Below, in pieces: positions 22,169 to 36,547 of a stretch of 64,000 nt of DNA. The position numbers and the translations under genes are program-made. This stretch comes from Streptomyces iranensis (lineage in GTDB: Bacteria > Actinomycetota > Actinomycetes > Streptomycetales > Streptomycetaceae). The stretch is from positions 372,001-436,000 of the forward strand of contig NZ_JAGGLR010000007.1 in the NCBI RefSeq assembly GCF_017874715.1. Direction: 5' to 3'. Each line of letters begins with the position of its first letter. Position 1 is the stretch's first letter. Under the pieces are notes generated by a model, which saw nothing but the letters and a program-made list of their open reading frames with translations, searched no databases and had not been told where the DNA came from.

Positions 22169-22249
22169 CTCACTAACGGTTTCTCTGGGGATGGGGGCAT
22201 GTCCATGATGAAGCCCCAGGTCGGGCTCCGGACGCTTGGGGGGTGGGTG

Positions 22250-22352
22250 TCAGCCGTGGCCGAGGATCTTCCGTAGCGCGCCGAGCAGCAACTCCGCCGC
22301 CTGCGGGGACGCTTCGGCATGGCGGAAGCCGATGTGGCTGTCGGGGGTCGCC
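22250..22352 (-). pseudogene. C-terminal remnant of an unknown gene
   Basis: On the minus strand a coding-like frame reads ATPDSHIGFRHAEASPQAAE then LLLGALRKILGHG and stop. It looks like the last 33 codons of an enzyme, possibly an alpha/beta hydrolase, with nothing recognisable upstream: the frame runs into the promoter region of the next gene. I take it as the leftover 3' end of a deleted gene. The family assignment is a guess. Confidence 0.4.
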
Positions 22353-22394
22353 GATCAACTTTGATGATCTTGTTCCAGAACCCGGACCCCGAGG

Positions 22395-22411
22395 TGTCTC
22401 ATTTCGAAACA
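22395..22411. promoter_or_regulatory. Dyad TGTnTC-N5-GAnACA ahead of AcoR-like regulator
   Basis: TGTCTCATTTCGAAACA has matching half sites (TGTCTC and GAAACA read TGTnTC on both strands) spaced by 5 bases, 26 bases before the regulator start. Bacterial enhancer-binding-type regulators recognise TGTnTC-like dyads, so this is probably an autoregulatory operator. The protein-site link is inferred. Confidence 0.55.
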
Positions 22412-22437
22412 CTGGCGGCGTATACGGTGGTGATGCT

Positions 22438-24285
22438 GTGACGACCACCGACGACACCCCCGCCGACCCGGCCCTCTCGTCGCTGCGCCGGGCGCGGGAC
22501 CGGTTCTTCAGCGGACGGCCACCGGGCGACGGGATCCCCGAGGACCTCGCCCAAGCCTGGCGGCGGGCGCGGTTCTTCGGCGTACCGCGCGATCTGGCGG
22601 CCCCGCCCAGGGTCCGGCCGCCGGTGGACTCACCGCTGCTGGCCGCCGCGCACCCCGTGCTGGACCGCGTGGCGCCGGCGCTGAGCGGTGCGATGGGGCT
22701 GGTGCTGGTCGACTCCCGCTGCCGGGCGCTGTGGTCGGGCGGCGGCCGTTACGCCGGTACGCCCGCGCCCGCGCCCACGCCCGACGGGATGGCCGGTCTC
22801 GATCTGTCGGAGAAGGCGGTCGGGCACAACAGCGCCGCGCTCGCGCTGCGTACGGGACGCCGGGCCGAGGTCCACGGCCCCGAGCACTTCCTCGACCTGT
22901 GGCAGGAGGTGTCGGCGGTCAGCGTTCCGCTGTACGAACCGACGGCGGGCCGCCCGGCCGGCACCGTCACCGTGGTGGTCCCGCTGGACGAGAGCCGCAC
23001 CGCCCATCCGGGCGCGGCGCTCGCCGAGGCCACCGCGTACGCGATCGAGACGGAGCTACGGGGCCGGGCGCGCCCGCCGGAGCGGGTGCTGCTCGACGCG
23101 TATCTGCGGCAGCGGGCCGAGGGGGCGGCGGTGGTGGCGCTCGACGGCAGCAGCCGCCTCGTCAGCCCGGAGGCCGCGCGGCTGCTGTCGCACGAGACGC
23201 TGGCGCGGCTGGAGCGGCATGCCACGGCCCTCCTCAGGGACGCGGATACGGGACCGGCCACGGGACCGGAGGAGCACGCACCGGAGGAGATCCCCGTATC
23301 GGACGGCGAGATCCCCGTACCGGACGGCGCCGGGCGCACCGTAAAGATGACGCGCCTGGTGCACGGGGGCGAGGTCATCGGGGCCATGGCCACGGTGTGC
23401 ACGGCGGCCCGGCGGGCGCGGTCGGCGGAGCGGCGGGGCCATGACCGGCTTCCGGGGCTCGTGGGCACGTCCCGGCCCTGGCGGCTGACCGTCTCCCGGG
23501 CGACGGAGCTGGCGCGGGCCGTGCAGCCGCTGCTGCTGATCGGCGAGCCGGGCGTGGGCAAGACCGCGCTGGCCCGCGCCCTGCTCGGCCTGCGGGGCGC
23601 CGCCGCGCCGCGTGTCGTCGACGCCGCCGAGCAGGTGCCCGGCGAGGTCCCGCGCTGGTGTCACGCACTCGCTGAGCCACCGGAGCCGGAGGGGGGCGGC
23701 GGCGCGCCGCCGCTGCTCCTGCGCCACGCCGAGCGGCTGGGCCAGTCCGATGTGGCGGCGCTGCTCTCGCTGCTGGAAGAGCGGCCCGCGGCACCGCTGG
23801 TGGCGACGCACACCCCGGGGGCGCCCACCGGCCCGTGTCTGAGCCGGCTGCTGGACATCCTCGCGGCCCGGTCGGTGACGCTGCCGCCACTGCGGGAACG
23901 CGTCGAGGACATCCCGGCGCTGCTGGCGGGCCTCGCCCGGCGCCCCTCCCCCGGACGTCCCCCGCTGACCTGGAGCCTGGACGCCCGCCGGGCGCTGGAG
24001 CAGCACACCTGGCCGGGCAATGTGGCCGAACTCGCCCATGTCGTACGGGAGGTGGCCGAGCGCCGCCGCGCCACCGGGCCGGTGCGGCGCGAGGAGCTGC
24101 CGTACGGGCTGCGGGTGCCACCGGCCACCCGTCGGCTGAGCGGTATCGAACGGGCGGAGCGCACCGCGATCCTGGAGGCACTGCGCCGGCACGGGGACAA
24201 CAAGGTGCGGGCCGCCGAGTCCCTGGGCATCGGCCGGGCCACGTTGTACCGGAAGTTGCGGGCGTACGGAATGGACCAGGCGTAG
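22438..24285 (+). CDS. AcoR/MimR-like Fis-family regulator (GAF-AAA-HTH_8)
   Basis: A 615-aa protein built like a sigma-54 enhancer-binding regulator: an N-terminal GAF-type sensor (about residues 60-200), a central AAA+ domain with Walker A LLLIGEPGVGKTALARALLG (near 368) and a C-terminal Fis helix-turn-helix (NKVRAAESLGIGRATLYRKLRAYG). The GAFTGA loop needed to contact sigma-54 is absent and the AAA core is shortened, consistent with Streptomyces lacking sigma-54. Relatives control alcohol, aldehyde or acetoin genes with ordinary RNA polymerase. GTG 22438 follows a TGTnTC dyad. No obvious target enzyme is adjacent; the remnant upstream may once have been one. Confidence 0.87.
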   Translation: MTTTDDTPADPALSSLRRARDRFFSGRPPGDGIPEDLAQAWRRARFFGVPRDLAAPPRVRPPVDSPLLAAAHPVLDRVAPALSGAMGLVLVDSRCRALWSGGGRYAGTPAPAPTPDGMAGLDLSEKAVGHNSAALALRTGRRAEVHGPEHFLDLWQEVSAVSVPLYEPTAGRPAGTVTVVVPLDESRTAHPGAALAEATAYAIETELRGRARPPERVLLDAYLRQRAEGAAVVALDGSSRLVSPEAARLLSHETLARLERHATALLRDADTGPATGPEEHAPEEIPVSDGEIPVPDGAGRTVKMTRLVHGGEVIGAMATVCTAARRARSAERRGHDRLPGLVGTSRPWRLTVSRATELARAVQPLLLIGEPGVGKTALARALLGLRGAAAPRVVDAAEQVPGEVPRWCHALAEPPEPEGGGGAPPLLLRHAERLGQSDVAALLSLLEERPAAPLVATHTPGAPTGPCLSRLLDILAARSVTLPPLRERVEDIPALLAGLARRPSPGRPPLTWSLDARRALEQHTWPGNVAELAHVVREVAERRRATGPVRREELPYGLRVPPATRRLSGIERAERTAILEALRRHGDNKVRAAESLGIGRATLYRKLRAYGMDQA

Positions 24286-24977: not shown

Positions 24978-26144
24978 GTGGGTGCTGAGGTCAATGGGGG
25001 TACGGCGCGGGCCGATGTGGTGGTCCTGACGGCGCTGGAGGTCGAGTACCGGGCGGTGCGCGCCCATCTGGAGGATCCGCGTCCGGTCCAGGCGGAGCGG
25101 GGAGCGGTGTTCGAGCTGGGCGTGTTCCGCGCGGAGTCCGGGGAGCGGACGGTCGCCATCCATATGACGGGGCCGGGGAATCCGGGCGCCGCGGCCTCGG
25201 TCGAGCGGGCGGCGGCGCTGTTCGCGCCCCGGGCGGTGCTGTTCGTGGGGGTTGCGGGTGGCCGTAAGGATGTCGCGCTGGGCGATGTGGTGGCCGCCGA
25301 CGCGGTGTACGACTACGAGACCGGCAAGGACACCGAGACGGGGTTCCTGCCCCGGCAGAAGACCTATCAGTCCGCGTACGGGCTGGTGCAGCTGGCCCGG
25401 CTGGCGGCGGCGGGCGACGCGTGGCAGCGGCGGATCCGCCCCGGGGGCGACGCGCCGCGCCCCCGGGCCCATGTGAAGCCCCTCGCGGCGGGTGGCCGGG
25501 TGGTGGCACACCACCGCTCGGACGCCGGGCTCAGGCTCGCGGCCAGTGCGGGCGACGCGCTCGCGGTGGACATGGAGGGCTTCGGCTTCCTCGCGGGCGC
25601 GTATGTCAATCAGCAGCTGGACGCGCTGGTGATCCGCGGCATCTCGGATCTGCTCGGGGACAAGGGCGAGGCGCACGACGAGCGCTGGCAGCCGGTGGCC
25701 TCCAGGAACGCGGCCGCCTTCGCCTTCGAACTGATCGGCCGCATCCCGGTCGCGGCGGACGCCCCGACAACGACCCGACCACTCGCCGCCGGTACGCCGC
25801 CCCTTGATGCCGGTACGCCACCCCTTACCGCCGGTACGCCGCCCGAGGGCCCCCGGCGGCGCAGGCTGACCATCCGTGACCTCGGCGTACTCGCGGACAC
25901 CCTGCTGGCCGTGCCCGGGATGACCTCCCCCGCGCACTGGCAGCAGCTGCTCGACGAACTGCCCACCGTCGGCACCGCGGTGGGCCGTCAGTCGGCGAGC
26001 CGCGCGGAGGCTCTGTCCCTGCTGCGCGTCTGCGAGGCGCGGCGGGCGATGGGCGAACTGGTGGAGGTGGTCGCGGTGCTCGCGCCGGACGATCCGGCGG
26101 CCGCCGAACTCGCCCGGCGCGTCGAGGAACTAGGATTGGAGTGA
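24978..26144 (+). CDS. MTA/SAH-type nucleosidase with effector-associated domain (EAD2-like)
   Basis: A 388-aa two-domain protein. Residues 10-255 are a purine-nucleoside-phosphorylase/MTAN fold: VVLTALEVEYRAV, FVGVAGGRKDVALGDVVAAD, VDMEGFGF with the substrate-binding Glu, and RGISDLLGDKG with the catalytic Asp. A flexible linker with three GTPP repeats follows. Residues 295-388 (LTIRDLGVLADTLLAVPGM ... LSLLRVCEARRAMGELVEVV ... LARRVEEL) form a small helical domain matching the effector-associated domain class. In such cassettes it recruits an effector to a matching domain on the sensor. The likely action is cleavage of a nucleoside or nucleotide upon activation. GTG 24978 follows AGGGGG by 6 bases. 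Confidence 0.83.
   Translation: MGAEVNGGTARADVVVLTALEVEYRAVRAHLEDPRPVQAERGAVFELGVFRAESGERTVAIHMTGPGNPGAAASVERAAALFAPRAVLFVGVAGGRKDVALGDVVAADAVYDYETGKDTETGFLPRQKTYQSAYGLVQLARLAAAGDAWQRRIRPGGDAPRPRAHVKPLAAGGRVVAHHRSDAGLRLAASAGDALAVDMEGFGFLAGAYVNQQLDALVIRGISDLLGDKGEAHDERWQPVASRNAAAFAFELIGRIPVAADAPTTTRPLAAGTPPLDAGTPPLTAGTPPEGPRRRRLTIRDLGVLADTLLAVPGMTSPAHWQQLLDELPTVGTAVGRQSASRAEALSLLRVCEARRAMGELVEVVAVLAPDDPAAAELARRVEELGLE
25788..25847 (+). repeat. 21-bp in-frame linker repeat, about 2.9 copies
   Basis: Three successive units beginning GCCGGTACGCC encode AGTPPLD, AGTPPLT and AGTPPEG in the linker between the nucleosidase and its effector-associated domain. Copy-number change would lengthen or shorten the linker without a frameshift. 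Confidence 0.85.
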
Positions 26145-26528: not shown

Positions 26529-28025
26529 ATGGCGGCCATGGGGGAAGGTGGCCTGAAATCGGTCGGCAACCTCGTCACGGCGTTGAAGGAGTTCCGCTGT
26601 CTGACGGATCCGGATCTGCGCACGCTGTGTCTGGATCTGGTCGCCATGGAGCTGGAGATGACCAGCGTCCCCGTGCGCACCCACCGGGTGACCGACTACT
26701 TCCTGGTGGAGCTGGCCCGCGAATGCCTGGAAAACGTGCGGATCATGCACGCGCTACGCGCGTCCCTCGCGGTGATGGCGGCGGCGGACGAGGACGCGAT
26801 CAAGCGGCTCGACTCGGTCATGGAGCAGATGACGGCCCGTCCGGCGCTGCCCGAGACCGCCATCGCGAAGCTGCGGTCGCTGCTGGAGGAGCTGGAGATC
26901 GAGCAGTTGGGCCAGTTGTGCCGTACCGCGGCGGGCCCGCTGCAGGACGTCCCCGCGGTCACCGGCCCCTGGCACGCCTTCGAGGTGCTCAGCCGGATGA
27001 ACGCACAGCCGGGCGGGCTGCCGCCGGGGCTCGCCCTGGTGGAGTACCTCGCGGCGGCGGCGCGTCCGCTGCAGAGGGCCGACGCGCTGCGCGACTGGGC
27101 CGATGATCAGGCTCGGGAGCTGGGCCTGACGCCCCAGCTGCGGTCGCTGCGGCAGCAGGTGGGCCATGCCGCCCCGGCCGGTCCGGTGGACGCCTATCTG
27201 GTGATCCGGCTGCTGCCGCGGGAGGAGGCCGGGGCTTACGAGCTCTCGTCCTGGCACCAGTACGACCCCACCGGCTGGCATCCGGTCCGCGGCCCGGTCA
27301 CCCAGGTCACCGCGGAGACCGCGGAGCGGGCGGTCCAGACGCTGGTGTACCAGGCGGCCGAGGAGTGGGACGACGCCCGCGCGATCCACGTCGAGTTCAT
27401 GCTCGGCCCGGATGACCTGAATCTGCCGGTCCACCGCTGGCGTCTGGAGCTCGACAGCGAGCTGCCCATCCCGCTGTACATGCACTACCCGGTGGTCGTA
27501 CGGAGCCTGGAGCGGAGCCGGACCAGGCGCTGGCACCGGGAGTGGAAGCACCGCTGGAACCTCCTCGACCAGCAGCCCGAGCGCGCCAAGCAGCTCGTCG
27601 TGGACGGCGAGGACCCGGACAGCCCGCGCTCCGGCGACCCCACCGCCCTGCTGGCCCGGCTCAAGGCCGATCCGCAGGTGGTGGCCCTGGTCCTGACCTC
27701 GCCCCCGGGCATCACTCCCGAGGGCACCTCGGAGGCGCTGACCGCCTGGCGGGCCGGGATTCCGGTGGTCGCCTGGGACGGCCGGGCGACCCGGGCCCCC
27801 GGCTTCGTCCAGCAGCTGAGACAAAATCAGGCCGACGCCAGCGGGAACCTGGCACGGCTCCGCGAAGCCGTGACAGAGTTACGTCTGGACGCCCATACGA
27901 TCGACTCCGCGGAGCGGGAGCATCACCTGGGGCAGCATGTGGTGCTCGTTTGGGACGACCCGACCCGTCCCGTGGAACCGCAAGGGCGCATTACGGGGCC
28001 GGACGAGGGGGTGGGTGGTCGATGA
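26529..28025 (+). CDS. VMAP-C domain protein of vWA-MoxR cassette
   Basis: A 498-aa protein. Residues 1-105 (NLVTALKEFRCLTDPDLRTL ... DYFLVELARECLENVRIMHAL ... IKRLDSVMEQM) are helical and parallel the effector-associated domain of the nucleosidase upstream. A middle helical region follows to about 215. Residues 218-490 are the VMAP C-terminal domain (DAYLVIRLLPREEAGAYELS ... IHVEFMLGPDDLNLPVHRWR ... PLYMHYPVVVRSLER). VMAPs link the sensor/ATPase core to effectors. The gene overlaps the MoxR gene by ATGA, as MoxR does the vWA gene. A rare TTA leucine codon lies at 27879-27881, predicting bldA dependence. GGGGGAGGG precedes ATG 26529. Confidence 0.83.
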   Translation: MAAMGEGGLKSVGNLVTALKEFRCLTDPDLRTLCLDLVAMELEMTSVPVRTHRVTDYFLVELARECLENVRIMHALRASLAVMAAADEDAIKRLDSVMEQMTARPALPETAIAKLRSLLEELEIEQLGQLCRTAAGPLQDVPAVTGPWHAFEVLSRMNAQPGGLPPGLALVEYLAAAARPLQRADALRDWADDQARELGLTPQLRSLRQQVGHAAPAGPVDAYLVIRLLPREEAGAYELSSWHQYDPTGWHPVRGPVTQVTAETAERAVQTLVYQAAEEWDDARAIHVEFMLGPDDLNLPVHRWRLELDSELPIPLYMHYPVVVRSLERSRTRRWHREWKHRWNLLDQQPERAKQLVVDGEDPDSPRSGDPTALLARLKADPQVVALVLTSPPGITPEGTSEALTAWRAGIPVVAWDGRATRAPGFVQQLRQNQADASGNLARLREAVTELRLDAHTIDSAEREHHLGQHVVLVWDDPTRPVEPQGRITGPDEGVGGR

Positions 28026-29203
28026 GCGACGAAGAGTCTGCGCGGCGCCACAACGGACGGATCCACCAGGATTCCGGTTCCGCCTCGGCCGCCCTGCCGT
28101 CCGGAATACCGCGCCCCTGGTGGATCTACCAGGGCACCGGGCGCCCGCTGCACGACGTAAGCCTGGAGGAGATCCTTCCGCCGCCGCCCCCGTGGCGCGC
28201 CTTCGGCGGGGTCTCGGCCGGTCCGGTCGAGGGCGACGGCCGGTCCGGCGCGTTATCGGACGCGGACGACGCCCCGACCGAGCCCCCGGCGCCGCCGGAG
28301 GACGAGCAGGACGCCGCCCGGCGGCTGGGCGCGACTCCCCTCGGGGTGCGCTCCGACCCGGAGGAGGCCGATCTCGTCAACGCGGCGCTGATCCTCAGAC
28401 GTCCCCTTCTGGTCACCGGCCGTCCGGGCACCGGCAAGTCCACGCTGGCGTACCGCATCAGCCGGGAGTTGGGCCTGGGCCGGGTGCTGCGCTGGCCGAT
28501 CACCACGCGTTCGACCCTGCGGTCCGGGCTTTACGGCTACGATGCCGTCGGCCGTGTGCACGCCGCCGCGGCCGGCCAGGCGTCGGAGGGGGACGCGCAC
28601 GAACCCGGACCGGAGGACATCGGCGACTTCCTCCAACTCGGGCCGCTGGGCACGGCGATGCTCCCGCACCGCCTGCCGCGCGTCCTGCTCATCGACGAAT
28701 TCGACAAGAGCGATATCGATCTGCCCAATGACCTCCTCGACATCTTCGAGGCCGGCGAGTACGCCATCCCCGAGCTGGTGCGCATCCGCAGACGCCGCCC
28801 GGCCGTATCGGTCCTCACCGACGACCCGGAGCGCAGTACCGTCATCGCATCGGGGCGGGTGCGCTGCCGCGCCTTCCCCGTCGTCGTCATCACCAGCAAC
28901 GGCGAGCGGGAGTTCCCGCCCGCGTTCCTGCGGCGCTGTCTCCAGCTGCGGCTGCCCGACCCGGACGCGGACCGGCTCGCCGCGATCGTGGCCGCGCATC
29001 TGGGGCGGGCCGACGATCCGCGTGCGCGGGAGCTGATCCAGATGTTCCTCGAGCGCAGCGAGCGCGAAGGCGGCCTCGCCGCCGACCAGTTGCTCAACGC
29101 GGTGTATCTGGTGACGTCCCAGTCACATGTTCCGGGGCCCGAGTGGGAGGAGCTACTGCAGGCCGTCTGGCATCGGCTGGACAGCGCAGCGGGCTCGACA
29201 TGA
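28022..29203 (+). CDS. MoxR-type AAA+ ATPase
   Basis: A 393-aa AAA+ ATPase. A disordered acidic N-terminus of about 105 residues precedes the core. Walker A is LLVTGRPGTGKSTLAYRIS (near 135), Walker B is RVLLIDEFDKSDIDLPNDLL (near 220) and sensor 1 is VVVITSNGEREFPPAFLRRC (near 295). MoxR ATPases remodel partner proteins, usually with a von Willebrand A domain partner, which here is the next gene. It shares 4-base ATGA overlaps with genes on both sides, so the three are one translational unit. A TTA codon at 28253-28255 again suggests bldA control. Confidence 0.92.
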   Translation: MSDEESARRHNGRIHQDSGSASAALPSGIPRPWWIYQGTGRPLHDVSLEEILPPPPPWRAFGGVSAGPVEGDGRSGALSDADDAPTEPPAPPEDEQDAARRLGATPLGVRSDPEEADLVNAALILRRPLLVTGRPGTGKSTLAYRISRELGLGRVLRWPITTRSTLRSGLYGYDAVGRVHAAAAGQASEGDAHEPGPEDIGDFLQLGPLGTAMLPHRLPRVLLIDEFDKSDIDLPNDLLDIFEAGEYAIPELVRIRRRRPAVSVLTDDPERSTVIASGRVRCRAFPVVVITSNGEREFPPAFLRRCLQLRLPDPDADRLAAIVAAHLGRADDPRARELIQMFLERSEREGGLAADQLLNAVYLVTSQSHVPGPEWEELLQAVWHRLDSAAGST

Positions 29204-32200
29204 CACACGACCCAGGCGGCAGGTCCGCCGGGCCGGGCCCGCGGGACCTCGACTGGCGGCAGCTCGCCGACGCCCTGTGGCTGGCGGTCTGCAAGGCCGA
29301 GACGGACCGTGGCCCCGGGCCGCCGGACCCCGGCCCCCTCCCCGGGGCACCGGAGGCGGACGCCCCGCCGCCCGGTGAGGAGCCGCCGGACGAGCCGCGG
29401 CAGGACCGGCAGGGGGAGCGCCCCTCGTCCGGGCCCGAGGCGGCGCCCGCGGCGTCGGAACCACTGCTCCCCGCGGAGCTGGTCGGCGGCTCCGCGCCGC
29501 CCGGCGAGGCGGAGCCGGCGACCGTCGCGGAGGCCTTCGTGCCCGCGCGCCGGCCGTCCGCCGACGGGCCGCCGCTGCCCGAGCGCGCCCTGTCCCGGGC
29601 GCTGCGGCCGCTCAAGCGCACCGCGCCCTCGCCGGTCGAGACGGAGGTCGACGAGGAGGCCACGGCCGAGCGCGCGGCGCGCGAGGGGCTGTGGGTGCCC
29701 GATCTGGTGCCCGTGCGCGAGCGCTGGATGGACGCCGTCCTGGTGGTGGACTGCGGCAGTTCGATGGTGGTGTGGCGGCGGACGGCCGCGCATCTGGTCA
29801 CCGTGTTGCAACGCACCGGCGCCTTCCGGGATGTGCGGGTGCACCGGGTGAACACCGACCATCCGTTACCCGAAGCGGACCGGTCGCCGGTGGCGGGGAT
29901 GCCGCCGCGCGGCAAGCGGACGGTGCTGGTGCTGACCGACGGCATCGGCGCGGCCTGGGGCGACGAGAGCGCCCAGCGCGCGCTGGCCGGCTGGGCGCGG
30001 CAGGCGTCGGTCGCGCTGCTGCACGTCTTGCACCAGGGCCGCTGGCACCACACCGGGGTGGCCCCGGAGCGGGTGCGGGTGCGGATCCCCGAACCGGGCG
30101 CCCCCAACGGCAGCTGGCGGCGGGCGGACGGCGGCTCCTGGCCGGGCGGCGCGCCGCCGGTCCCGGTGCTGGAGCTGAACGCGCGGTGGATGGCCAACTG
30201 GGCCCGGCTGGTGGCCCGCCCGTCGGCGCGCGGCGAGGACACGATGGCGCTGCTGCCCGGGGCGCCCGCCGAGCGCTGGGACCCCGAACCGGAACCGAGC
30301 GCCTGGGACCGCGTCTTCCGGTTCCGCGCCACCGCCTCGCCGAGCGCCTTCCGGCTGGCGTCCCGGCTGGCCGCGGCCCCGTTGAACATTCCCGTGATGG
30401 AGTTCGTGCAGGGCATCCACCAGCCGGAGGGCAGTCCGGGCGATCTGGCCGAGGTCCTGCTGGGCGGGCTGCTGCGCAAGGTGGGGACCGCCGACCCGCT
30501 GGACGAGACGGGTATCGGCTACGAGTTCCACGACGGGGTACGCGAACTGCTGCTGTCCGCCGGGATGCGGGACGAGTCGCTGTACATCCTCGGCAGCGTC
30601 CTGGACCGGCTGGGCCGCCGCTGGAAACCGCTGCTGATGCTGCGGGATCTGCTCAATCACCCCTCGGGCTCGGTGGGGGACCTCCCCAGGACGGAGCGGC
30701 TGCTGCCGTACATCCGCCTCCAGGAGCAGGTCTACCAGGCTCTTTCTGGGCCGTACCTGGAGGGTGCGCGCTCCTTTCGCGCCCTTGTCCTGGCCCATCA
30801 GGCGCTCGCCCGCTCGGGGGAAAGCCCGCCCGATCCAGTTGAAGACGCATCACACAGGGGAAAATATGTGGTCTCCGAGGCGGTTGCGGCCATGACTGAC
30901 TCCACGACTCCCCGACCAGACCCGCTGTCCCAGGCCGACGATTCACCATCCCCGCCGGCGCACGGCACGCCGGGCCCGGCGGGGGAGCATCTGAGAGGAA
31001 CATTTGTGTCCGTGACCGCTGCCCGGACCCTGCCCACCGTGGAGGACCGCCAGCCCGGGGAACCCCCGTCCATTTGGGGAAATGTACCGCCCCGGAACAA
31101 CAACTTCACCGGCCGGCAGACGTTGCTCGACACTCTCCACGAGCGACTGAAGAGCGAGGGCACCGCCGCCGTGCTGCCCGAGGCCCTGCACGGGCTGGGC
31201 GGGGTGGGCAAGTCACAGATCGCCCTGGAGTACGTCCATCAGCACGCCGCCGACTACGACGCGGTGTGGTGGATCCCGGCGGAGCGCCCCGAGCAGATCC
31301 GCCAGGCGCTGGTCCAGCTCGCCGACCGGCTCGGGCTGCACGCGGGCATGGAGGCCAACACGGCCGTGCCCAGCGTGCTCGACGCGCTGCGCACCGGACG
31401 GCCGTGCCGCAACTGGCTGCTGGTCTTCGACAACGCCGAGGAGCTGGAGACGGTTCGGCCGTTCTTCCCCGCGGGCGGGCCGGGCCGGATCCTGGTCACC
31501 TCGAGGAACGCCCAGTGGTCGCGCGCCGCCCGCACCGTCGAAGTGGACGTCTTCGAGCGCGAGGAGAGCATCGAGCTGCTGCGCCGCCGGGGTCCTGAGC
31601 TGCCGCGCGAACAGGCGGACCGGGTCGCCGACGCCCTGGGGGACCTTCCGCTGGCCATCGAGCAGGCGGCCGCGTGGCTCACCGAGACGGGGATGCCGGC
31701 CGACGAGTATCTCCAGGTCTTCGAGGACGAGCGGGCCGATGTCTCCACCCGCCGCAATGAACTGCTGGCGGCGGGCGTTCCGGTGGACTACCCCGAACCG
31801 GTCGCCGCCGCCTGGAACATGTCGCTGCGGCGGCTGGCCGAAACCCATCCCGGCGCCATCCAGCTCCTCCAGATGTGCTCGTTCTTCGCACCCGAGCCGA
31901 TCTCCCGGCGGCTCTTCTCCGGCGTGCGCGGGGTGTCCCTCTCGCCCGAGCTGTCGGAGGTGCTGCAGGACCCCATCAGGCTCGGCCACGCGATCCGTGA
32001 GATCAACCGCTACGCCCTGATCAAGATCAATCACCGCAGCAACACGATCGAGATGCACCGGCTGGTGCAGGCCGTGCTGATCGGCCAGATGTCCACACAG
32101 CAGCAGGCGGACATGCGGCACAGCGCCCATGTGCTGCTGGCCTTCGGCGACCCCAACGACGTGGCACCCCCGAACTGGGGGCGGTATGCCGACCTCCTCT

Positions 32201-33564
32201 CCCATGTCCGGGCGTCGCGCGCGATGGAGTGCGATGACAAATGGGTGCGGCAGATGGTGCGGAACCTGGTTCGCTTCCTCCATGTCTGGGGCGACCACGA
32301 CGGCGCGCTGGAGCTCGCCACCCAGGTGCGCCGAAAGTGGGTGGAGACGCTCGGCGAGGACAGTGCGGAGACGCTGGCCGTCTCCCGGTCCCTGGGCCAT
32401 GTCCTGACCGTGCTCGGCCACTTCAACGAGGCCCGGGAGCTCAACCGCCGGACGCTGGAGCTCCAGCGCGCCCAGGAGGGCGACGACCACGAGAACACCC
32501 TGGTGACTCAGGGCGCGGTCGCCGTCGACACCCGCTACCAGGGCGAATACGCCCGCTATGTGGAGCTGGAGAAGGACCGCTGGACCAGGACCCTGCGGCT
32601 CGCCGGGGACGAGGACCCGTACTCCATCGCCGCGACGAACGACTACGCCGTGGCGCTGCGCGCGGCGGGGGACTACGAGCGCGCCCGGCAGCTGGACGAG
32701 AACGCCCGGCGCACCGCTGGTCTGGTGCTCGGCGAGGACGCCCTGCTCACCATCCTGGTGGAGGCCAACCTCAGCATCGACGTCCGCGAGGGCGGGGACT
32801 ATCCGGCCGCCCGCGACATGCTGGAGCAGACCTGTAGCCGCGCCCGCCAATTGTTCCCGCCGAACACACCCACCGTGGTCTACGCCCTGCGCAACCTCGC
32901 CGTGGCGCGTCGTAAGGCCGGCGACCACGAGGGCGCCCTGGACCTCAGCCGGGAGGTGCTGGAGCGCTACCGGCTGCGCTACACCGAGCCCAACCTCCAC
33001 ATCACCACCACGGCCTTGGCCCTCTCGATGGATCTGCGGCAGACCGCAGATCTGGAGGGTGCCCGTGAGCTCGGCCGGAAATGTCTCGACGACATGCGCG
33101 TCCTGCTGGGGGAACGGCATCCGGCGACCCTGGGCGCGGCGGTCGACCTCGCCGTGACGCTGCGGCTGCTGGGCGAGACGGACGAGGCGCTGGCGCTGAA
33201 CAAGGAGACGCTGCCGGTGCTCGTCGAGCGGCTGGCGGCCGACCATCCCACGGCGCTGGCCTGTGCCATCAACCTGGCCAGCGACCACTACACCCTCGCG
33301 GACTATCAGGAGGCCCATGACCTGGACGTCGAGACCCTGGCGGCCTGCCGGTCCCGGCTCGGTGAGGACCACCCCACCACGCTCGCGTGTGCGGTCAATC
33401 TGTCGGGGGATCTGCGTGCGCTGGGTGAGGGCAGGCAGGCGGAGGAGCTGCACCAGGACGCGCTCGGCCGGCTGCGCCGGGTGCTGACGGCAGGCCACCC
33501 GGCGACGGTCGCGGCGGCCCGGGGGATCCGGGCGGACTGCGATGCGGAGTCGATCTCCATCTGA
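29200..33564 (+). CDS. FxsT-like vWA / NB-ARC / TPR signalling protein
   Basis: A 1454-aa protein. Residues 1-175 contain a short helical start (DLDWRQLADALWLAVCKAE) and an acidic disordered linker. Residues 178-400 resemble the SAV_2336-type vWA-like domain (MDAVLVVDCGSSMVVWRRTA ... VLVLTDGIGAAWGDESA). A second linker is followed by an NB-ARC/STAND NTPase with Walker A ALHGLGGVGKSQIALEYVHQ (near 665) and Walker B NWLLVFDNAEEL. Residues 950-1450 are tetratricopeptide repeats of the kinesin-light-chain type (LGEDSAETLAVSRSLGHVL, LGERHPATLGAAVDLAVTL, LGEDHPTTLACAVNLSGDL). This matches FxSxx-COOH-system TPR proteins. The MIDAS motif is DCGSS rather than DxSxS. TTA codon at 29866-29868. Overlaps MoxR by ATGA. 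Confidence 0.85.
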   Translation: MTHDPGGRSAGPGPRDLDWRQLADALWLAVCKAETDRGPGPPDPGPLPGAPEADAPPPGEEPPDEPRQDRQGERPSSGPEAAPAASEPLLPAELVGGSAPPGEAEPATVAEAFVPARRPSADGPPLPERALSRALRPLKRTAPSPVETEVDEEATAERAAREGLWVPDLVPVRERWMDAVLVVDCGSSMVVWRRTAAHLVTVLQRTGAFRDVRVHRVNTDHPLPEADRSPVAGMPPRGKRTVLVLTDGIGAAWGDESAQRALAGWARQASVALLHVLHQGRWHHTGVAPERVRVRIPEPGAPNGSWRRADGGSWPGGAPPVPVLELNARWMANWARLVARPSARGEDTMALLPGAPAERWDPEPEPSAWDRVFRFRATASPSAFRLASRLAAAPLNIPVMEFVQGIHQPEGSPGDLAEVLLGGLLRKVGTADPLDETGIGYEFHDGVRELLLSAGMRDESLYILGSVLDRLGRRWKPLLMLRDLLNHPSGSVGDLPRTERLLPYIRLQEQVYQALSGPYLEGARSFRALVLAHQALARSGESPPDPVEDASHRGKYVVSEAVAAMTDSTTPRPDPLSQADDSPSPPAHGTPGPAGEHLRGTFVSVTAARTLPTVEDRQPGEPPSIWGNVPPRNNNFTGRQTLLDTLHERLKSEGTAAVLPEALHGLGGVGKSQIALEYVHQHAADYDAVWWIPAERPEQIRQALVQLADRLGLHAGMEANTAVPSVLDALRTGRPCRNWLLVFDNAEELETVRPFFPAGGPGRILVTSRNAQWSRAARTVEVDVFEREESIELLRRRGPELPREQADRVADALGDLPLAIEQAAAWLTETGMPADEYLQVFEDERADVSTRRNELLAAGVPVDYPEPVAAAWNMSLRRLAETHPGAIQLLQMCSFFAPEPISRRLFSGVRGVSLSPELSEVLQDPIRLGHAIREINRYALIKINHRSNTIEMHRLVQAVLIGQMSTQQQADMRHSAHVLLAFGDPNDVAPPNWGRYADLLSHVRASRAMECDDKWVRQMVRNLVRFLHVWGDHDGALELATQVRRKWVETLGEDSAETLAVSRSLGHVLTVLGHFNEARELNRRTLELQRAQEGDDHENTLVTQGAVAVDTRYQGEYARYVELEKDRWTRTLRLAGDEDPYSIAATNDYAVALRAAGDYERARQLDENARRTAGLVLGEDALLTILVEANLSIDVREGGDYPAARDMLEQTCSRARQLFPPNTPTVVYALRNLAVARRKAGDHEGALDLSREVLERYRLRYTEPNLHITTTALALSMDLRQTADLEGARELGRKCLDDMRVLLGERHPATLGAAVDLAVTLRLLGETDEALALNKETLPVLVERLAADHPTALACAINLASDHYTLADYQEAHDLDVETLAACRSRLGEDHPTTLACAVNLSGDLRALGEGRQAEELHQDALGRLRRVLTAGHPATVAAARGIRADCDAESISI

Positions 33565-33622: not shown

Positions 33623-35443
33623 TCACCCGCGCGTACGGGTCCCGATCCACCGCGCCAGCGCCACCGGATCGGGACCCGTGCCCGGTGCGGTGCGCAGCTC
33701 CCGGTGGACGGCCAGGACCAGTTCGGGGTGGTTCAGCAGCGTCGTCCTGGCCGCGCCGTCCGGCTGGCTGAGTGCGAGCCCCGCCCATGCCGCGATGTCG
33801 TCCGGGTCCGCGTCCAAGCGGGCCCGGTAGCCGCGCAGCGCGTCCGCGGTGTCCCCCGCGGCCCAGTCGAGATCGGCCCGGTCGGGGGCGTCACCGCCCC
33901 CGGGCAGCCCCGCTCCCCCGCCCTCGCACAGCCGCGCGAACCCCGCCGGATCCGCGAGCCGGAGCCGGGCGAGCGCGGGGCGTGCCGGCGCCTCGGGGCG
34001 GGTCGGCCGGACCGAGGTCCCGGGCAGCTCCCCGGGCGGGTCGGTCCGCTCCCGCCAGGCCCGCGCCCACCGGGCGGTCGGCTCCGGGTCCGCCGCCAGG
34101 TGGCGCATGCGGTGGACGAGCCGGTGGTCGTGGATCAGGTCGGACGCCAGGCGCGCCGGTACGGAGGGCACCCGCTGCGCGAGCCACAGGGTCAGCCGCT
34201 CCTCCAGCCGGTGGAGGAACTCCTCGCCCCTGGGCGTCAGTTCGGCGTGAGCGAGGAGCGTACGCAGCCCCGAGGCGGTCTGTGCCCGGCGCAGGGCGAA
34301 CTCGAACGCGGCGGTGTCCCGGGCCGGTCCGGGCTCGGCGCGCCGCAGCCGGTCCCACCAGAATCCGGTCACGCCCAGGAACGCGTACACCCCCTGAAGG
34401 AGCCCGCGCAGGGGTCGCGGGTCCAGCCGCCAGGGCGCGTAGTGGATCTCCTCCAGGCCCCCTTCGATCAGGGGCACCAGGTCCATCAGGGCGCTGAGTT
34501 TGATGTGCTGGGCCTCGTGCACCAGCGCGGCGGCGAGGGTCAGTGGGTCCGCGGCCCCGTTGAGCAGCACACAGCCGTACGCCTCCGGCGATGAGGCGCT
34601 GAACGGTTCGGGCCAGGCGGCGTACGGCACGGGCACGACGGAGGACAGACAGGCGCCGATTCCCCGCGGGTCCACCTGACGCTGCTCCGAGACCAGCCGC
34701 CACGCATTGCCGAATCTCTCCTGCCAGCCCTGCCACTCTTCGTCGCCGAGCCGCTCGGGCTCCCGGATCCGGAGAAAGTCGCGATAGGGGTCGAGGTCGT
34801 CGACGAGGGGGGCGCACACAATCCCCTCGTGTTCTCCGCGCAGCCGCCGCAGTCCGTGCCAACCGGGAGCGTCCTCGGAGAAGTCGGCGGGCAGCGTCAC
34901 CGAATACGGGCCGGATAACACCACCGACTTACGGCCGTATCTGACGACCTCGGCGACATCGGCGGTGTCCGGAATGCGGGCGAATCCCAGGGCGGGCAAT
35001 ATGACCCCGCCCTCGTGCACGGGAACGGTGCCGCGAAAGTCGATTCCGGCGAGAAGAGCGGCCGAGGCGGCTATGGCATGCAGATGACCCACCGCGCTCC
35101 ACAGCGGCCCGTCCCCCGATTCCAGACCGCGCAGCCTGCGCAGACAGCGGTTGAGCCACACCCCCACGGACGGGTGCAGCAGCAGCGTCTCCACGGCTGC
35201 CGGGGAGCGGTGCTCGGCCCGAATCAGCAGGTGCCAGGCGTCCCGGGGCAGGGGAAGAGGGCCGGGCAGGGCGGGGTGCGCGGAGCCGATGTCCACCAGG
35301 GCGCGCAGCAGCAGCATGGCCCGGCTACGCTGTCCCGACCTCAGTTCGGCCACGGCCGAGGGGCCGCCCGAACCCCGCGCCAACTCGGCGAAACCCCCAG
35401 CCGATAAACGATGGTTGAGGCCCCGCGTGACGGAGGACGTCAT
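33623..35443 (-). CDS. HExxH-motif peptide beta-hydroxylase (RiPP tailoring type)
   Basis: A 606-aa protein matching the HExxH-motif putative peptide-modification family (mod_HExxH), now regarded as 2-oxoglutarate/iron peptide beta-hydroxylases. The metal motif is LVHEAQHIKLSALMDLVPL (HEAQH at residues 309-313), followed by WRLDPRPLRGLLQGVYAFLG. In FxSxx-COOH clusters this domain is usually fused to a radical-SAM maturase. No CxxxCxxC is present here, so it stands alone. ATG 35443 lies 6 bases after the stop of a 57-aa precursor gene, implying coupled translation. Two TTA codons (35405-35407 and 34916-34918) suggest bldA control. It is convergent with the vWA/NB-ARC/TPR gene. Confidence 0.85.
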   Translation of the reverse strand: MTSSVTRGLNHRLSAGGFAELARGSGGPSAVAELRSGQRSRAMLLLRALVDIGSAHPALPGPLPLPRDAWHLLIRAEHRSPAAVETLLLHPSVGVWLNRCLRRLRGLESGDGPLWSAVGHLHAIAASAALLAGIDFRGTVPVHEGGVILPALGFARIPDTADVAEVVRYGRKSVVLSGPYSVTLPADFSEDAPGWHGLRRLRGEHEGIVCAPLVDDLDPYRDFLRIREPERLGDEEWQGWQERFGNAWRLVSEQRQVDPRGIGACLSSVVPVPYAAWPEPFSASSPEAYGCVLLNGAADPLTLAAALVHEAQHIKLSALMDLVPLIEGGLEEIHYAPWRLDPRPLRGLLQGVYAFLGVTGFWWDRLRRAEPGPARDTAAFEFALRRAQTASGLRTLLAHAELTPRGEEFLHRLEERLTLWLAQRVPSVPARLASDLIHDHRLVHRMRHLAADPEPTARWARAWRERTDPPGELPGTSVRPTRPEAPARPALARLRLADPAGFARLCEGGGAGLPGGGDAPDRADLDWAAGDTADALRGYRARLDADPDDIAAWAGLALSQPDGAARTTLLNHPELVLAVHRELRTAPGTGPDPVALARWIGTRTRG

Positions 35444-35449
35444 AGCCGC

Positions 35450-35623
35450 CTAACTCACACAGGGTTCCGACGTCGACGAGTTGCCGATCGTCGGCGGGCG
35501 CTGGACGATGTCGAGCAGCCGCTCCGTCACCGCGGAAAGCCCTTCGTACCGCTCGAGGTCTTCGAGTGTCGCCCCCGAAAGGTCCAGCAGCTCTGTCTCG
35601 ACCTCGGTCGCGACCCGCTCCAT
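35450..35623 (-). CDS. Putative RiPP precursor peptide, 57 aa
   Basis: A small gene with a strong ribosome site (GGAGGGGG about 8 bases before ATG 35623) and a stop 6 bases ahead of the HExxH hydroxylase. The leader (VETELLDLSGATLEDLERYE, then SAVTERLLDIVQ) is acidic and helical, in the style of FxSxx-COOH precursors (ELxDLxxxxLxxL). It is followed by a PP break and a candidate core, TIGNSSTSEPCVS. The FxSxx ending is absent, so the tail is non-canonical. It has one Cys and a Ser/Thr-rich core with a single Asn that could be hydroxylated. Gene structure, position and leader support a real precursor; the product is unknown. Confidence 0.75.
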   Translation of the reverse strand: MERVATEVETELLDLSGATLEDLERYEGLSAVTERLLDIVQRPPTIGNSSTSEPCVS

Positions 35624-35785
35624 GACACCGTCCCCCTCCGGACGCTCCCTAACGGCTCGTATGAGGCATCCCTATGGTGGCCTACCCCTAATGATTGCGA
35701 AAGGGTGAACACGGCCAGTCGGCGCCTGCGTTGTCAAGATTTTCGGACACTTCCGCGCGCCTGGGAGCCCCCCGATATGCCGGTG

Positions 35786-36547
35786 TCATCCCCCCGTTCC
35801 GGATTGCATCGTCTCGACCTCGAACACGCCTCCGCACGCCCGGAACGACCGGGCCGAGACGTTCATCGCGTCGAAGGAATCCGGCGGATAGACCCGGATC
35901 CGCGCGGCGGTGCCGCGGCACGGGGTGTCGTTCATGCCCTCGTTGAGCGTGTGCAGACTGCTCGAGGCGCTGCCGCCGGGCGGCAGGGAGACCGGGGAGC
36001 GCGTGGGGCCGCGCCGGGTGGCGGGGTCGCCGATCACCGCGCCGGTGGAGTCGAGCAGCGAGACACCGGGGTATCCGGTGAGGGTGCAGGTCGTGGCGGA
36101 CTTGTTGGTGAACACCAGGGGCAGGTACACATTGCCGGCCCCGATGTCCATCCGGCCGACCGCCAGCGTCAGCTGCGCCTTGGAGCAGACGCGGCGCTCC
36201 CCGGACGCGGCGGCGGGCCGTGAGGAGGACGGGTGCGAGGGCCGCGCCGAGGGCGGAGGGGACTGCGCGGTCCGCGAGGCGGGCCGTTCGTTCCGGGAGG
36301 AGCCGCTCTTGGAAGAGGCCGAGGAGGCGGCCGAAGGGGAGGAGGGTGGCGCGGCGGAGGAGGCGGAGGTGACGGACGAGGCGCGCCGCGCGGAGTCCCC
36401 GTCCCCGGTGTCGCTGCCGCACGCGGTGACCGTGGCCAGCGCGCCGATCAGCAAGGCGCATAAGACGGGCGGCCGGGAGCGCGCTGCCGCCGTGCGCCGA
36501 GTCGTACGCCGAGGAGCCGAACCGTTCCGTTGACTCATGTGACTCAT
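35786..36547 (-). CDS. DUF4232 lipoprotein
   Basis: A 253-aa exported lipoprotein. A basic N-terminus and hydrophobic stretch end in the lipobox LATVTACGS (Cys near residue 44). A long Ser/Pro-rich linker follows, then a DUF4232 domain (ERRVCSKAQLTLAVGRMDIG ... LPLVFTNKSATTCTLTGYPG ... LPPGGSASSSLHTL). DUF4232 proteins are abundant on Streptomyces surfaces and have no assigned function. ATG 36547 has GGGAGG 6 bases upstream. It precedes the RiPP precursor on the same strand with a 162-base gap, so it may or may not belong to that cassette. Confidence 0.9.
   Translation of the reverse strand: MSHMSQRNGSAPRRTTRRTAAARSRPPVLCALLIGALATVTACGSDTGDGDSARRASSVTSASSAAPPSSPSAASSASSKSGSSRNERPASRTAQSPPPSARPSHPSSSRPAAASGERRVCSKAQLTLAVGRMDIGAGNVYLPLVFTNKSATTCTLTGYPGVSLLDSTGAVIGDPATRRGPTRSPVSLPPGGSASSSLHTLNEGMNDTPCRGTAARIRVYPPDSFDAMNVSARSFRACGGVFEVETMQSGTGG

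Follow-up and report, generated by a model that had tools for sequence, protein, structure and literature searches.

Kaur et al. described in eLife in 2020 a module that they predicted to be a peptide-processing system, whose enzyme they read as a peptidase (PMC7159879). According to the accessible text of that article, a small diverging precursor and a zincin-like HExxH protein are encoded beside VMAP, MoxR and vWA components, and in the RxD and acidic types an AP-ATPase and TPRs are fused to the vWA protein; the locus of Streptomyces iranensis that we report here is alike on both counts. However, its precursor tail corresponds to none of the four types given there (FxSxx, RxD, acidic and FtsH-associated; the source data of the article may list more), and for its enzyme hydroxylase is the better reading.

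As far as the accessible parts of the reports go, the residues that become hydroxylated by this enzyme family are His, Asp, Phe, Gln or Pro (PMC13060819). PosC and PflC hydroxylate Gln and, in variants, Asn, Val or Ser sites; their oxidation requires the leader, and both also perform oxidative backbone cleavage (PMC12636437). PflC, PosC and PesO modify residues towards the C-terminus of their precursors, the first two under control of the leader (PMC12636437, PMC13060819), and they share, with the predicted member BpmH (PMC12257519), the family of the hydroxylase studied here. The work on ChlBH, an rSAM-fused HExxH hydroxylase, is that of Morishita et al., as cited in PMC12636437. Unlike our locus, the PflC, PosC and PesO clusters also encode MNIO enzymes, the PflA leader is of the nitrile-hydratase type, and a conflict system is not mentioned in the accessible text of these reports.

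The window that we analysed, 64,000 nucleotides of S. iranensis with a G+C content of 71%, contains at 35450..35623 (-) a short, easily missed open reading frame that we confirmed to be a real, conserved gene. The first-pass annotation had proposed a 57-codon precursor-peptide gene with a ribosome site, ending six bases before a hydroxylase gene, and all these details held when the sequence was checked. Indeed, 57 codons from an ATG to a TAG stop (35450-35452) encode MERVATEVETELLDLSGATLEDLERYEGLSAVTERLLDIVQRPPTIGNSSTSEPCVS, in a frame supported by homologues and by the codon pattern. The ribosome site GGAGGGGG (35632..35639, -) stands 8 nt ahead of the ATG; in the locus alignment it is unchanged in L002-L006, L008, L009 and L013 and changed in L010-L012 and L014. 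Only GCGGCT separates the stop from the hydroxylase ATG at 35443, which makes translational coupling plausible. Searches with the 57-residue product against Pfam and NCBIfam (E<=10) gave no match, nor did a search for plasmid DNA.

We also observed a conserved block 5' of the gene (35621-35790), of the form AAAATCTTGA...CTTTCGCAATCA. The AAAATCTTGA part is kept in 12 of the 13 aligned loci (L013 differs by one base and L014 is without it), and the other part is present in all 13 with minor changes. A putative -35-like hexamer, TTGACA, lies within the block (35732..35737, -). Near the peptide gene, a sigma-70 scan returned 0 promoter-like sites and a scan for an intrinsic terminator found none. 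One possibility is that the block acts as a promoter or operator of an unusual kind.

We found 14 loci carrying the hydroxylase in GTDB genomes. Over their best segments, the nearest named hydroxylases show 82-94% identity; they come from eight Streptomyces records, S. violaceusniger included (L002-L009). Of the 13 loci examined, 12 have a homologous ORF immediately ahead of the hydroxylase gene, a count that leaves aside L007, where the upstream DNA is absent, and that includes L009, whose peptide gene has a one-base deletion; the locus without a homologue, L015, is distant (Streptosporangiaceae). The idea of a conserved precursor-type gene tied to the HExxH hydroxylase thus stands. In L009, from S. 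violaceusniger NBRC 13459, frame breaks affect the peptide gene (L009:9816-9994) as well as the hydroxylase after it, and several neighbour genes matched only in part; this looks more like an assembly error than decay.

The peptide falls into two parts which evolve differently. The leader, residues 1-44 (MERVATEVETELLDLSGATLEDLERYEGLSAVTERLLDIVQRPP; 35492..35623, -), is under purifying selection, and the tail or core, residues 45-57 (TIGNSSTSEPCVS; 35453..35491, -), is diversifying. Among eight close relatives pN/pS was 0.29 in the leader, 0.39 in the hydroxylase and 1.46 in the tail (residues 44-57, alignment columns 49-64), pair counts which share ancestry and are exploratory. The leader value agrees with coding, the pattern of synonymous and non-synonymous changes on which the earlier proposal had been made to depend. 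The gap in pN between tail and leader was equalled or exceeded in 5 of 10,000 column permutations, and the tail pN of 0.204 is above the maximum of 0.186 among the 16-codon stretches that we sampled from the hydroxylase. With all 12 aligned peptides the contrast was weaker (0.50 in the leader versus 0.82 in the tail). Differences at codon positions 1, 2 and 3 in the same eight relatives numbered 68, 34 and 131 in the leader, the third position being enriched, versus 100, 65 and 58 in the tail, where it is not; this latter pattern fits fast change and by itself is not coding evidence. Across the 12 peptides 20 columns are invariant, 19 within residues 1-44 and one at Cys55.

Profile searches extended this association. 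At E<=0.001 a peptide HMM matched in 12 of 295 Streptomyces genomes, each time adjoining a hydroxylase match; in a larger, overlapping draw there were matches in 17 of 392 genomes, and of the five extra ones three read as a precursor followed by a hydroxylase-like start, the other two being L176 and L177. A leader HMM (E<=0.01) matched an upstream ORF in 43 of 70 hydroxylase loci (30 from a profile search and 40 from its higher-scoring matches) versus 1 of 619 control windows, and still in 35 of 62 loci when the clade of the window was removed. In 29 loci (L107-L135) from a class-wide draw, the leader HMM retrained on Streptomyces matched in 15 (E<=1e-4). These were all 4 of the Streptomyces loci and 11 of the 25 others, the latter 11 all from one further family (f18) with other tails.

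Three genomes (G159, G196 and G101) each carry two hydroxylase genes on opposite strands, a few kilobases apart (L044/L068, L047/L069 and L052/L076), each with its own leader-type precursor and with differing tails. In another genome, G089 (L063/L080), short tandem repeats resembling CGGAGCTGAACCGCTTG overlap the end of the peptide gene and continue beyond it. We considered the in-frame TGA of this match as a recoded codon and rejected the idea; it reads as an ordinary stop, after which the short tandem repeats follow.

The acidic, helical leader had been likened to that of FxSxx precursors, and this likeness proved to hold for one kind of FxSxx leader and to fail for the other. Our leader alignment, with the consensus ETELxDLSGxxLEDL...RLLxxVxxPP, matched 12 FxSxx-type precursors by hhalign at 95.6% (E 1.2e-8, 46 columns), 100 column-shuffled controls reaching at best 3.0%. 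These 12 had been picked from 30 loci by a DL...L..LR-type motif, a choice which favours a match; of the remaining loci, 10 were not read and 8 with another kind of leader were dropped. With six FxSxx precursors of that other kind, the set remaining after many loci had been lost to strand handling, hhalign gave 0.3%, and shuffles reached 0.4%. The leader homology is thus limited to one of the two FxSxx kinds. A low-confidence model of the peptide (mean pLDDT 70, pTM 0.29) places predicted helices at residues 20-24 and 31-41.

Membership of the FxSxx-COOH family (TIGR04268, with the radical SAM protein FxsB) was nevertheless rejected, the tail ending in STSEPCVS and not in FxSxx. As the first-pass annotation had noted, with NSSTSEPCVS in its place, the C-terminal motif is absent, and the TIGR04268 model had no match above cut-off in the genome. 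In further contrast to that family, the tail has no aromatic residue for a cyclophane, and the FxsB extension model NF040587 found across the genome only the hydroxylase described below, under its cut-off.

The neighbouring gene (33623..35443, -) encodes a 606-residue homologue of aKG-HExxH-type peptide beta-hydroxylases. It matched TIGR04267 with E 3e-50 (170.6 bits, cut-off 40), the only match of this model in its own genome, and among PDB chains 22nu (440 aa, named radical SAM core domain-containing protein; E 3.8e-41) and ChlH (8s5f; E 3.7e-9), the latter match spanning the HExxH region. The motif itself is HEAQH, residues 309-313 (34505..34519, -). HExxH is intact in all 75 sequences of our tree set, from which L091 had been dropped beforehand, and 61 of them carry a further signature downstream of it, W[RKH]x[DE]xRP; 11 of the 14 sequences without this signature are of the RxD/E type defined below. 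The structure model of the hydroxylase has pLDDT <50 over residues 254-351, its catalytic region.

Could this protein instead be a true metallopeptidase, as proposed by Kaur et al., cutting the precursor and freeing its C-terminal peptide? The relative PflC does hydrolyse a truncated, leaderless substrate (PMC12636437). Nevertheless, in the accessible text of the two reports the characterized members act as 2-oxoglutarate oxygenases, and do so on substrates with a leader (PMC12636437, PMC13060819), and beta-hydroxylase is the name that NCBIfam gives to TIGR04267; moreover, the oxidative cleavage by PflC and PosC means that oxidation and cleavage can coexist. We hold a metallopeptidase to be rather unlikely.

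If the enzyme is a hydroxylase, the residues of the tail become candidate targets. The core had been described as rich in Ser and Thr with one Asn and one Cys. The composition was borne out: in 21 distinct sequences of the clade of the window, Ser and Thr together contribute 113 of the 293 residues of the tails (617 of 7300 in 12 hydroxylases), and each tail has exactly one Cys, with 0-7 residues behind it (Cys55 in the window; codon at 35459..35461, -). The single Asn was borne out in part; Asn accounts for 26 of the 293 residues (54 of 7300 in the hydroxylases) and occurs in 20 of the 21 tails, L031 being without it, but its position shifts. In a second Cys-type clade of three sequences (L035, L037 and L038) there is no Asn. 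In all 24 distinct Cys-type sequences an Asp, Glu, Asn or Gln stands at most four residues ahead of the Cys, a count for which no chance expectation was computed. Among the aligned tails no hydroxylatable position is fixed. A Pro at the border between leader and tail, present in 41 of 53 aligned peptides, is another candidate site.

The invariable Cys and the many Ser and Thr residues raise the alternative that the enzyme oxidizes a tail Ser, or the kept Cys, at its beta-carbon to an aldehyde-type or thio-derived group, and not to a stable alcohol. PosC acting on an engineered Ser gave a -2 Da product, interpreted as an aldehyde (PMC12636437). A natural example was not found in the accessible text of the reports, a kept Cys would equally suit binding, cross-linking or metal ligation, and Asn is nearly always there too. 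We regard such an oxidation as improbable and retain hydroxylation as the preferred outcome.

Beyond this clade the tails are of several kinds, which we labelled by regular expressions as Cys, RxD/E, GSxGS, xTV and others. When mapped onto a quickly built tree of the hydroxylases (75 rows), which gave long-branch warnings, these labels required 16 changes versus a shuffled mean of 39.0, and 0 of 200 shuffles were as low, indicating that tail type and enzyme clade go together. The 17 Cys-type rows form one side of one branch with a support of 79.8, below the starred level; this one-clade test was run without L053 and L081, labelled Cys by the rule but with the tail HPDECGR inside a longer, uncertain ORF. 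The Cys tail is a new type, in a module of a kind already predicted, whose likely chemistry is revised here; we found no description of it in the literature searched, which comprised main texts open without subscription.

These results also bear on whether the small protein is a substrate at all. A small acidic protein encoded six bases upstream of the hydroxylase might be a regulator or an antitoxin-like partner of it. A conserved leader with a fast-diversifying tail is, on the contrary, the behaviour of a substrate, as are the homology to FxSxx precursors and a tail type which tracks the enzyme clade, and we consider a regulator very improbable.

The putative substrate and its enzyme belong with a VMAP/vWA-NB-ARC-TPR conflict locus, a suspected immune system. 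On the opposite strand, four genes precede the hydroxylase. The first (24978..26144, +) encodes a PNP-superfamily and EAD2 protein, the probable effector from its domain matches and a PADLOC match to a PN-superfamily effector (E 4.6e-17), and the second (26529..28025, +) a protein with matches to EAD2, VMAP-M0 and VMAP-C. The third (28022..29203, +, start codon assumed) encodes an AAA ATPase (PF07728, E 1.1e-5) with weak PADLOC matches, which from the conserved gene order we take as the MoxR component. The fourth (29143..33564, +), convergent with the hydroxylase, encodes a SAV_2336 N-terminal region followed by NB-ARC and TPR (NF041121; NF040586, 854.8 bits; PF00931; TPR families); in our own reading the SAV_2336 region would be the vWA part of the system. 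VMAP, AAA/MoxR and SAV_2336/vWA thus stand together, two of these component names being assigned here, and their order is conserved in relatives. PADLOC gave no match for the four other proteins submitted, the peptide and the hydroxylase among those without a match, and profile searches found no peptidase or transporter family among the module proteins. Close to the locus, a sigma-54-activator-like protein with a Fis-type HTH (PF02954) is encoded at 22243-24285 (+).

NB-ARC and TPR matches lie on the strand opposite to the hydroxylase in 21 of 21 loci, and 13 of these loci have the full set of PNP, VMAP, AAA and vWA matches. The more distant L136-L138 have no PNP match, L015 has NB-ARC and TPR matches only, and L004, L007, L011 and L013 are at contig ends or short. 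L014 and L139 keep the module while the DUF4232, LysM, Rv2632c and PRT genes that flank the closer copies are unmatched there, which suggests that the unit is the module. Of 40 hydroxylase loci sampled more broadly (L067-L106), 23 have an NB-ARC match and 17 (9-12 kb each) have none; across the wider family, then, the hydroxylase is not always linked with the conflict system. Among the RxD/E-type loci of this set 13 of 16 have no NB-ARC or TPR match in 9-12 kb, and this type may function outside VMAP systems.

Taken with its setting, we consider it probable that the gene encodes a leader-guided, hydroxylated RiPP-type peptide which acts as the signal or effector of an NB-ARC conflict system. 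The conserved leader would be bound by the Fe(II)/2-oxoglutarate HExxH enzyme encoded just downstream, as the leader dependence of PflC and PosC leads us to infer, and the enzyme would hydroxylate one residue of the tail, or several, at the beta-carbon. The likeliest target would be Asn, or the Asp, Glu, Asn or Gln shortly ahead of the Cys, the Cys itself being kept for binding or a later step. After removal of the leader, the modified C-terminal peptide would serve the adjacent VMAP ternary conflict system as its signal or effector.

This conflict-system setting, which the first-pass annotation had left out, is the main addition to that reading, which our results support on the points they cover. 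A more speculative and, in our opinion, improbable extension is a switch of NLR-like bacterial immunity that depends on oxygen, iron and 2-oxoglutarate, in which the HExxH enzyme oxidizes the Cys-type tail, the NB-ARC-TPR protein senses if the peptide carries the modification, and an infection that upsets the metabolism of the cell triggers the effector. If this were true, the tails proper to each clade (Cys, RxD/E, GSxGS and xTV) would belong to matched, diversifying pairs of peptide and sensor.

For the family, the Cys tail type is one that escapes the FxSxx family model. A module predicted for peptide processing becomes a testable pair of substrate and enzyme, whose likely chemistry shifts from cleavage to hydroxylation. 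Should the modified peptide communicate with the NB-ARC protein, signalling in bacterial immunity would include a hydroxylation step.
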